Part shown: one piece after another, positions 34,191 through 37,417 of the stretch | How positions within the stretch are numbered: position 1 is the first letter of the stretch | Layout: the number at the start of each line of letters is the position of its first letter | DNA from: Acidilobaceae archaeon | GTDB taxonomy: Archaea > Thermoproteota > Thermoprotei_A > Sulfolobales > Acidilobaceae | Reading direction: 5' to 3' | Length of the DNA: 53,163 nucleotides | NCBI GenBank assembly: GCA_026413755.1 | Contig: JAOAKH010000010.1 | Coordinates: 1 to 53,163, forward strand | Made by a program: the position numbers and the translations under genes | The notes under the pieces: generated by a model | What the model was told of the DNA's origin: nothing | Databases searched by the model: none | Seen by the model: only the letters and a program-made list of their open reading frames with translations

Positions 34191-34871
34191 TCACAAAAAG
34201 TGAATACCTAGCTCCTCCAGCAGGAAGCGTATGGGCAAGTCTCCTAGGAGCAGCGTCGCGATCATTCCCACGGCTAGGTGAGCCACATAGGGATGGCCCG
34301 GCGAGGCCTCCAGCTGGAGGTTTAGCTCCCCTCCAGAAGCCCTGAGCACTATGTCCTCTTGACTCTCCTCTTTGCACGCCTCACCACTTACGACCCACCA
34401 GCGCAGCCGCGGGTCCTCTATCAGCCTCCTGGCCTCCACCTTGTGAGAGAATGCTAGAAGGCAGCGAGGCTTCAGGGAACCGCAGAACAGGTAGTTAGAA
34501 TATAGCTGATATGCAAGGACGGAGAGAGGAGAGTATAACACTGCAAGGAAGAGCGGAGGCAGGAGGAGGTGGCCGGCAGGAGCTATCAGGGCAATGAAAG
34601 CCATGGCTAGCACGTCTGCGCCGCCTATGAGGCAGAGCCTGTAGAGGGCATAAGCCAAGGTCACGAGGAGGAGGGAGGAGAGGAGGAAGAGCATGTGCTT
34701 CCAGACGTCGGCAAGGGCTGCAAGAGCAGAGAAGGGAGCACCTGCTAGCGTCGCAAGGATCCACACCTTTGTGTCCACTTCCCTCCTCTTCACGTCCTCG
34801 ATGGCAGCATATCCCATGACGAGGGTTGCATATAGTAGCACGAGCGAGCTCAGCTCCAACTTCTTCCCCAC
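34191..34871 (-). CDS. Archaeal prepilin/preflagellin peptidase (PibD/FlaK-like)
   Basis: 226 residues with about five or six membrane segments. The two catalytic aspartates of class III A24 peptidases are Asp26 (YAAIEDVKRREV) and Asp86 (LIGGADVLAM, the GxxD motif). The enzyme cleaves class III signal peptides of pilins, archaellins and sugar-binding proteins before assembly. No pilin gene is adjacent. Start GTG 34871; another GTG at 34841 would fit a leaderless transcript from GATATATTT. The soluble loop SHKVEARRLIEDPRLRWW is family-typical. Confidence 0.85.
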   Translation of the reverse strand: MGKKLELSSLVLLYATLVMGYAAIEDVKRREVDTKVWILATLAGAPFSALAALADVWKHMLFLLSSLLLVTLAYALYRLCLIGGADVLAMAFIALIAPAGHLLLPPLFLAVLYSPLSVLAYQLYSNYLFCGSLKPRCLLAFSHKVEARRLIEDPRLRWWVVSGEACKEESQEDIVLRASGGELNLQLEASPGHPYVAHLAVGMIATLLLGDLPIRFLLEELGIHFL

Positions 34872-34882
34872 AAATATATCTG

Positions 34883-34894
34883 TTCCTATAGGAA
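34883..34894. promoter_or_regulatory. 12-bp perfect palindrome upstream of prepilin peptidase
   Basis: TTCCTATAGGAA is a perfect palindrome 12 bp before the GTG at 34871 and 76 bp before the acidic mini-gene, in an AT-rich spacer with several TATA-like stretches (GATATATTT, CTATATAG, CTTTTTATAC). It could be an operator for either gene. Confidence 0.4.
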
Positions 34895-34969
34895 TAGCTG
34901 CCTAAATTACTATATAGCAGATAAACTTTTTATACGCCGGGCTTCCTACCTCACGCGAAGTGAAGCAAG

Positions 34970-35125
34970 ATGGCTAGAAGGAGGTTCGAAGAGGAGGAAG
35001 AAGAGGAAGAGTACGAAGAGGAGTTCGATGAGGAAGAGTACGAAGAGGAAGAGGAGTACGAGTACGAGGAGGAAGAGGAGGAAGAGTTCTGGGAGGAAGA
35101 GGAAGAGGAGGAAGAGGAAGAATAG
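34970..35125 (+). CDS. Hyperacidic 51-residue protein (37 Glu)
   Basis: ATG 34970 to TAG 35125. The protein starts MARRRF and then is almost all glutamate, with runs of 8, 3, 3, 5, 7 and 10 Glu separated by single Tyr, Phe, Asp or Phe-Trp; 37 of 51 residues are Glu. Codons alternate GAG and GAA and the aromatic residues recur regularly, so it is not simple slippage of one triplet. CTTTTTATAC at 34925-34934 is a TATA box about 40 bp upstream and a short GAAGTGA lies before the ATG. Function unknown; a DNA- or RNA-mimic that binds basic chromatin or ribosomal proteins is possible. Confidence 0.62.
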   Translation: MARRRFEEEEEEEEYEEEFDEEEYEEEEEYEYEEEEEEEFWEEEEEEEEEE

Positions 35126-35142: not shown

Positions 35143-36429
35143 CTATATAATACCCTTTATTGTTCCTCTCACGTCGAAGAACGTGTAGCTAGAGACCGTC
35201 ACCCTTACCCACTTCCCGTATTCGACAGGAGGGCTAACCACGACGGGCACGTAGTTCCTCATTCTTGCTGTTACGGTGCCCCTCCTGTGGCCTGCCTCTG
35301 TCACCAGGGCCTCTACCTCCCTCCCCATGTAGCTCCCCATTACCGAGAGCCCCACCTCCTCCACTACTTGAGCGAGCAGCTTGCTCCTCTCCTTCTTTAA
35401 GTTATCTGGCACTTGAGGCATGGCTGCCGCCTTTGTGTGCGGCCTAATGCTATACTGAGCCAGATGCACCTTCTCGAACCTTAGCTCCTTAACGAGCTTC
35501 ACAGTGTTCTCGAAGGCCTCCTTGTCCTCACCAGGGTGACCCACGATTATGTCGGTGGCTACCATTGCATCCGGATACCTTGCCTTCACCTTCTTGTGTA
35601 GCTCTCTGAACTCGTCCACAGTGTACTTTCTCTTCATGACCTTCAGCACCCTGTCGTCGCCGCTCTGCACGGGGAGGTGGAAGTACTTGTAGACCCTCTC
35701 GTCTCTGTACGCCTCCAGCAGCTCGTCTATCATCTCCAGGGCCAGGTCGGGCGTCATCATGCCTACCCTTAGCATGTAGTTACCCTCCACCTTTTCCAGT
35801 ATGCTCCAGAGGAGGTCAGGCAGCATGAACCTCTCGCCAAGGTCTCTCCCATAGGCTGCCACGTCCACGCCCGTCAGCCTTATCTCGACGGCGCCCTGCG
35901 AGACGAGGTCTCTAACGAGCTCCACGATCTGCCTCGGCGAGTAGCTCTTCAGCTGCCTTCTTGCTATCTTCGTTATGCAGAAGCTACAGTCCCCAAGGCA
36001 GCCCTCTTGGATCATTACGGAAGCCACTGCCTCCTTTGGAGATATGCGGGGGAGGAAAGAGGTGTCCCTGGAGCCCTCAAGCAGCACCACCCTCCCCTTG
36101 CTCTCCACGGCCTCCACCACCTTGCTCACGTTCTGGGGCGAGAGGAGGCTGGCGTGAGGAGCGGCCCTCATCACTAGCCCGGGCCTCGCTTTTGCAAGAC
36201 ACCCCATGACTATGAGCCTCTTCTCGGGGAACATTTCTGTTATCTCCCTTAGCCTCTCCGCTATCCTTTGCTCAGTGTCCAGTCTCACTGCACATGTGTT
36301 AACGAGAACGCAGTCTGCCTCTTCTATCGAAGAGGCCTTTGCGTATCCCCTGCTCCTCAACAGGCTCTCTGCAACTGCATTGTCGAACTCTGCCAGCGCA
36401 CAGCCGTAGGTCTCTATGTAGTACCTCAC
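35143..36429 (-). CDS. tRNA t6A37 methylthiotransferase (MtaB/CDKAL1-type)
   Basis: 428 residues from GTG 36429, preceded by GGGGAG; longer readings run through the divergent promoter. N-terminal UPF0004 domain with [23 protein letters not shown] and [10 protein letters not shown] (three Cys for one Fe-S cluster), radical-SAM motif [17 protein letters not shown], and a C-terminal TRAM domain with [28 protein letters not shown]. It makes ms2t6A at position 37 of ANN-decoding tRNAs. Archaeal members are of the e-MtaB class. Confidence 0.92.
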
Positions 36430-36459
36430 TTCTCCCCAGCTACGGAGTAGCGCTAGGAG

Positions 36460-36483
36460 TTTAAAGTCTCCTCCTAATATTTT
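36460..36483. promoter_or_regulatory. Divergent promoter for methylthiotransferase and pyrB
   Basis: TTTAAAG (36460-36466) is 34 bp from the minus GTG 36429; TAATATTTT (36475-36483) is about 22 bp from the plus TTG 36500. Both starts would have short or no leader. Confidence 0.45.
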
Positions 36484-36499
36484 CCCCCGGGGGTTCCGC

Positions 36500-37417
36500 T
36501 TGAGCTTCCGCGGCAGGGACGTACTCACTATACTGGACTTCGAGAGAGGGGAGCTAGAGGAGCTCTTCGAGGAGGCAGACGTGATTAGGAAGAGAGGAGT
36601 TTCGGGAAGACCTCTGGAGGGCAAGATCATGGCCTTGGCCTTCTTCGAGCCCTCCACGAGGACGAGGCTCAGCTTTGAGACCGCAATGAAGAGGTTGGGT
36701 GGGGAGGCCATAGGCTTCACCAGCGAGGAGGCAATAAGCGTGGCAAAGGGCGAAAGCTATGTGGACACGGTGAGGATGTTAGACGCCTACTCCGACGTCA
36801 TCGTGATCAGGCACAAGTACGATGGAGCTGCAAAGCTGGCCGCAGAGATAGCGAGGAACCCAGTAATAAATGCGGGCGATGGGAAGCAGCACCACCCCAC
36901 CCAGGCTATGATAGACCTTTATACCATAAGGACCCTCCTTGGAGGCGTGGACGGCCTTACCGTAGGAGTGCTGGGGGATCTAAAGTACGGCAGGGCGGCC
37001 TCTAGCTTCATATTAGGTCTCACTCATTACAAGCCGCGGCTCGTCTACCTGATATCTCCGCCCCAGCTAGCGGCGAGGAGAGAGGTATTGGATCAGGCGA
37101 GGGAGAGAGGGCTACCGTACAAGGAGGTAAACAGCCTAGAGGAGGTTATAGGTGAGCTAGACGTGCTCTATGTGACCAGGATACAAAAGGAGAGGTTCCC
37201 TGACCCGGAGGAGTACGAGAAGGTGAGGGGGGCTTACGTGGTGACCCTTGAGCTACTGCAGAGGAGGGCGAAGAGGGAGCTAAAGGTGCTCCACCCGCTG
37301 CCGAAAGTAGACGAAATAGAGCCGCGAGTGGACGAAAGTCGCTTTGCTTCCTACTACGAGCAGGCCAGGCTAGGAGTCCCTCTGAGACAGGCGCTACTCT
37401 TGAAGCTGTTGGGATGA
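36500..37417 (+). CDS. pyrB: Aspartate carbamoyltransferase catalytic subunit
   Basis: 305 residues, start TTG 36500. [13 protein letters not shown] (carbamoyl phosphate site), [43 protein letters not shown]-like [13 protein letters not shown] and HPLPKVDEI are standard. It commits carbamoyl phosphate and aspartate to pyrimidine synthesis. The regulatory partner pyrI is at 40963-41439 in another operon on the opposite strand, not directly downstream as in most archaea. Confidence 0.96.

Follow-up and report, generated by a model that had tools for sequence, protein, structure and literature searches.

An E/W microprotein gene at the locus

The window, by which we mean the whole 53,163-nucleotide stretch of DNA that was analyzed, contains a short open reading frame (ORF) at positions 34970-35125 on the plus strand. 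Its translation, MARRRFEEEEEEEEYEEEFDEEEYEEEEEYEYEEEEEEEFWEEEEEEEEEE, is 51 amino acids long and includes 37 glutamates, one aspartate and eight aromatic residues, with no cysteine. The protein has a computed pI of 4.05 and a computed charge of about -35, and its glutamate fraction of 0.73 is followed by 0.24 for the runner-up among all window ORFs of at least 30 codons. The glutamate codons, 22 GAG and 15 GAA, occur in mixed order. An earlier note on this DNA, made from the sequence alone, had described a short gene with 37 Glu in 51 residues and mixed GAG/GAA codons, and the ORF confirms both points. We refer to it as the E/W gene.

The interval covered by that note (34883-35125) begins with 87 bases of upstream DNA that lie outside the gene. 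This upstream region contains a TATA-like promoter element, CTTTTTATA, at 34926-34934 on the plus strand, approximately 36-44 nt from the ATG, which is the usual archaeal distance with a short 5' leader. An AT-rich box resembling it is found at a comparable position in relatives, in agreement with the claim that the gene has its own TATA box. The upstream region also contains the 12-bp palindrome to which the note had drawn attention, TTCCTATAGGAA at 34883-34894. Although the palindrome exists, it is one of 23 perfect 12-bp palindromes in the window and was not found in the nearest relative; we therefore consider it not notable, probably a product of chance, and dropped the idea of a functional role.

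Pfam reported no family at E-values up to 1 for five E/W members, including the window protein, and sequence searches of Pfam, NCBIfam and the PDB with E/W members produced no match. AlphaFold predicts a single straight helix for the window protein with a mean pLDDT of 95.5. Because such predictions favor helix for Glu-rich chains, this model discriminates nothing, and we gave it no weight.

The E/W gene converges with a radical-SAM methylthiotransferase gene (UPF0004, Radical_SAM and TRAM domains) at 35143-36429 on the minus strand, which ends 17 bases past the E/W stop codon. The mechanical ORF for this enzyme (35143-36720, minus strand) starts about 97 codons too far out: orthologues align only from residue 95-99 or so, which places the true start near 36429. 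The surplus N-terminal part is antisense to an aspartate/ornithine carbamoyltransferase gene at 36500-37417 that is divergent from the methylthiotransferase, and this overlap explains why the surplus part has separate matches elsewhere in relatives. Upstream of the E/W gene and divergent from it, a gene at 34191-34871 on the minus strand encodes an A24-type leader peptidase, which lies outside the function proposed below.

The E/W gene is conserved and selected for its protein product

The family of the window genome includes Aeropyrum and "Acidilobaceae" assemblies. A short ORF rich in Glu, with spaced aromatics, adjoins the same methylthiotransferase gene in each of the five other genomes from the genus, and members of three further genera also have such an ORF at this site; the product in one relative, for example, is MARRKFEEEEEYEEEFDEEELEEEEEEEEYWEEEEEEEYWEEEEEEEEE. 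The E/W gene occupies a different site in Aeropyrum and one further genus. The earlier note had proposed looking for small acidic ORFs at the same locus in related genomes, and these are present; within both the genus and the family, relatives keep the gene in place and in frame. One assembly (G035) has two methylthiotransferase genes, each with an E/W gene beside it (C7:30816 and C45:15086; L040 and L022), either because the locus is truly duplicated or because the assembly is mixed.

A protein search of the family with the window ORF recovered only the ORF itself and one insignificant relative, because low complexity defeats alignment statistics. For the same reason we relied instead on synteny and on a DNA pattern encoding EEExWEEEE, paired with a mirrored control pattern. 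Within the order, the pattern is present in 139 of 214 genomes, compared to five genomes for the mirrored control. Across the phylum Thermoproteota, 168 of the 397 genomes drawn contain the pattern and three contain the control. Our sampling of archaeal phyla covered the Thermoproteota and the phylum of one Woesearchaeota genome. The latter gave one match in 147 genomes; the matching ORF is of another kind and shares its DNA with a zinc-finger ORF read in a different frame. None of 195 genomes from the phylum of a Lactimicrobium genome matched the pattern.

Thermoproteota genomes usually have one matching locus, and it is nearly always a tiny ORF. The encoded proteins are approximately 20-70 residues long and consist of Glu runs broken by Trp, Phe or Tyr, as in MKIWLEEEWEEEWEEEWEEEEWEEEEWEEEEW, MIFEEEEEWEEEDWEEEEWEEEEW and MPIWYYREEEEWEEEEELWEEFEEEWEEEEEW. 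A relaxed pattern had no match in the sampled genomes of families f17, f49, f36, f45 and f6, in most f30 genomes or, within the window's family, in several genera; since this pattern requires a Trp between acidic runs, the lack of a match does not prove that the gene is missing.

Codon changes between close relatives fall at the first, second and third positions 24, 15 and 164 times, respectively, which implies selection on the E/W protein. The predominance of third-position changes, the persistence of the aromatics and the retention of the locus in relatives also bear out the earlier argument against repeat slippage. The length of the ORF does differ among relatives and its sequence is nearly a two-letter one, as might be expected of a neutral repeat or a chance ORF. 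However, that explanation is scarcely credible in light of the codon-position bias, the near absence of the mirrored control pattern, the retention of the gene throughout the phylum and its linkage to the gene for ABCE1, described below. We conclude that the E/W ORF is a conserved, selected protein-coding gene. At this low complexity, alignment statistics cannot establish homology among the members. We take the window ORF to be a diverged member of an E/W microprotein family spanning the Thermoproteota.

E/W genes are linked to ABCE1 in much of the phylum

Clustering the neighbors of the sampled loci revealed one dominant partner, which occurs at 45 loci and lies within 800 bp at 38 of them. 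Its sequence and Pfam domains (Fer4_RLI, Fer4 and two ABC_tran stretches) identify it as ABCE1/Rli1, the Fe-S ATPase that splits ribosomes in archaea and eukaryotes. Of the 126 distinct E/W members, 59 have ABCE1 nearby: in 46 the E/W gene precedes it by less than 1 kb on the same strand, and in 13 the arrangement is different. By our count, at least 22 family-level groups have the E/W gene immediately ahead of ABCE1 and on its strand (f2, f3, f7, f10, f11, f13, f14, f16, f18, f19, f20, f24, f28, f31, f34, f37, f39, f40, f41, f42, f44 and f56), and ten further loci, in genomes that fail the strict pattern, have a slightly different E/W gene in this position. The distance to the downstream ABCE1 is often 20-130 nt. 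In some groups TFS lies between the two genes, making a transcription role possible, and the wider neighborhood often contains genes for CGI-121, Sua5, a THUMP protein and eS17. Thus, the earlier description of the gene as standalone is accurate for the window genome but not for much of the phylum, where the E/W gene adjoins ABCE1. We found no description of the family in the literature or in family libraries, within the limits of those libraries. Taken together, these results define a large, unannotated, ABCE1-associated microprotein family of which the window gene is one member.

The identity of the partner bears on a proposal in the earlier note, that the protein, as a polyanion, imitates nucleic acid in binding Cren7, Alba, Sul7-like or ribosomal proteins, or that it chelates cations. 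The charge of the 51-residue chain, about -35, is compatible with such a role, and the proposal has no support beyond that charge. The sampled neighbors show no link to chromatin genes and consist instead of ABCE1 and translation genes. Additionally, a simple polyanion needs neither conserved Trp positions nor a C-terminal Trp. The ABCE1 linkage points to a role in ribosome recycling rather than DNA mimicry, and we regard a mimic or chelator as decidedly unlikely, although E/W proteins may bind some basic protein or the ribosome.

Linked and unlinked members differ at their C-termini. A C-terminal Trp is found in 52 of the 59 distinct members with ABCE1 nearby, which typically end in E-E-W, even though Trp makes up only 12-19% of their composition. 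Under a 19% composition model, chance would produce this with a probability of about 3e-30, a figure that is too small given the relatedness of the members, though the conclusion holds. Among unlinked members, 30 of 67 end in Trp and many have Glu, Phe, Leu or Ile as the last residue; the window protein ends in E-E-E.

We also compared ABCE1 sequences from genomes with and without an E/W gene. Where the gene is present, positions 13 and 80 of ABCE1 are enriched in basic residues and position 434 in Trp (L179 numbering). We discounted this signature: the enriched residues are present in f6 and f38, where no E/W gene was found, f37 and f39 have an E/W gene and an ABCE1 with Gln80, many positions were compared and ancestry confounds the comparison. 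Separately, the ABCE1 of f21 (L293, L294 and L295; G224:C2, G245:C1 and G261:C15) is 919-922 residues long owing to an intein-like insert that interrupts its Fe-S domain (CGIC / LDPNTPV...VHN / CVKKC).

The E/W gene persists away from ABCE1

A tiny ORF this close upstream of ABCE1 could act in cis as a leader peptide, whose translation would destabilize the ribosome, sense the state of splitting or recycling and thereby control ABCE1 expression. In bacteria and yeast, Glu runs close to the N-terminus cause intrinsic ribosome destabilization (PMC9718836), and E/W genes resemble leader peptides of this type in being tiny ORFs that lie ahead of another gene and encode acidic residues near the start of the chain. 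Unlike a leader peptide, the E/W gene has no fixed position upstream of ABCE1. The window's family is one of those in which it persists unlinked under its own promoter. In f9 it and ABCE1 are divergent, and in some other families it lies upstream of TFS. Because a cis element would be lost at unlinked, divergent or TFS sites, we consider leader-peptide control improbable.

Two uncharacterized neighbors were seen at such loci. In f9 (L126, L127, L128, L130, L131 and L132), a conserved gene for a protein of 161-175 residues with no Pfam match lies tail to tail with the E/W gene, 3-15 bp away. At L184 and L183 (G382 and G219; f23 and f16), the unlinked E/W gene adjoins a conserved gene for a protein of 250 residues, also with no Pfam match.

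In the window genome, ABCE1 is on a separate contig and has no E/W gene beside it. The same is true of ABCE1 in Aeropyrum and two other members of the window's family, which supports the relocation of one ancestral gene. Compared to the ABCE1-linked kind, the E/W gene of the window lineage is longer, has its own promoter, lacks the C-terminal Trp and lies beside the methylthiotransferase, which is a conserved E/W neighbor in this family only. Based on composition, single copy, mutual exclusivity and taxonomy, the window gene probably descended from the ABCE1-linked genes, a descent that alignment cannot prove. The persistence of the E/W gene away from ABCE1 in this family indicates that it probably works in trans.

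A candidate accessory factor for ABCE1

Few helpers of ABCE1 are known in archaea. The nearest functional model for the E/W protein is the eukaryotic factor eIF3j/Hcr1 (Hcr1 in yeast), which assists ABCE1 in recycling (PMC7196836). A hydrophobic pocket of eIF3b receives a Trp from the acidic domain of eIF3j (PMC2824034), and the eIF3j N-terminus contains three acidic Trp motifs, MSWDDEA, DSWDAEIGDDE and QSWDAEEEE, which we checked against PDB chain 7a1g_z. By eye, the SWDAEEEE of this chain resembles EEDWEEEDWEEE in an E/W protein. The factor offers a precedent for an acidic stretch with repeated Trp-centered motifs in a functional partner of ABCE1. The eIF3j N-terminus reportedly contacts ABCE1 in the ABCE1-43S structures of Kratzat et al. 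from 2021. The resemblance is limited in that eIF3j is much longer and has a folded C-terminal half, whereas E/W proteins are nearly all Glu and aromatics, and the eIF3j/Hcr1 family models matched none of five E/W members, including the window protein.

Gene order and this motif resemblance suggest that the E/W protein works in trans and that its target is ABCE1 or the post-splitting complex of ABCE1 with the 30S subunit. A basic surface would attract the acidic chain, whose spaced Trp, Phe and Tyr residues would dock in hydrophobic pockets in the manner of the eIF3j/Hcr1 acidic Trp motifs. Such docking would modulate the binding of ABCE1, its ATPase activity or its release from the 30S subunit. 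The gene of the window lineage would presumably retain this function despite its relocation. Trans action is the best fit to the linkage of the gene and its survival away from ABCE1, as well as to the small size of the protein and the Trp anchors that it has retained. We tentatively propose that E/W proteins are ABCE1 accessory factors that use an acidic chain with Trp anchors. All functional evidence for this reading comes from gene order, and the window's own family, which has lost the ABCE1 linkage, counts against it.

The C-terminal Trp raises a different role, in which E/W proteins would be adaptors that deliver apo-ABCE1 to archaeal Fe-S assembly. ABCE1 is a 2x[4Fe-4S] protein, the neighbor of the E/W gene in the window's family, the methylthiotransferase, is another Fe-S enzyme, and the Trp endings are concentrated in the members near ABCE1 (52 of 59). 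Lto1, of the Yae1-Lto1 adaptor, also ends in a Trp that serves the same client, eukaryotic Rli1/ABCE1 (PMC4523923, PMC10623007). However, E/W proteins have no deca-GX3 motif and almost no Gly, and they have Glu at position -3, where the eukaryotic tripeptide [LIM]-[DES]-[WF], which is recognized in targeting by the CIA machinery, has Leu, Ile or Met. A survey that included one archaeon reports few Fe-S proteins with a Trp ending there (PMC10623007). Many unlinked members, the window's included, lack the C-terminal Trp, and the long Glu runs would be left unexplained. We know of no CIA targeting complex in archaea. An Fe-S maturation adaptor therefore seems unlikely to us.

If E/W proteins are ABCE1 accessory factors, as may quite possibly be the case, the Thermoproteota would have a phylum-wide ABCE1 cofactor built as an almost pure Glu/Trp chain, a minimal counterpart of the acidic Trp motifs of eIF3j or the C-terminal Trp of Lto1. 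A small partner gene beside ABCE1 would provide a handle on the control of archaeal recycling, re-initiation or ABCE1 Fe-S loading, as well as on the origin of the eukaryotic ABCE1 helpers. The family also illustrates how widely conserved proteins can be hidden by homology searches that discount low-complexity sequence.

Acidic C-terminal tails with Trp are also a feature of the LysW amino-group carrier proteins. Unlike LysW, the window protein and nearly all E/W members have neither a zinc ribbon nor a LysW-motif ending. At L187:5941-6198 (minus strand) in G325, a LysW-like zinc ribbon, scoring 27.1 bits against a cut-off of 27, is joined to a long E/W tail, and this protein may be a link between amino-group carrier proteins and E/W chains. 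A zinc-finger protein with CxxC motifs and an E/W tail is encoded at L185:5940-6179 (minus strand) in G501, and a comparable ORF, a zinc finger followed by an acidic tail, is present at L318:1605-1814 (minus strand).
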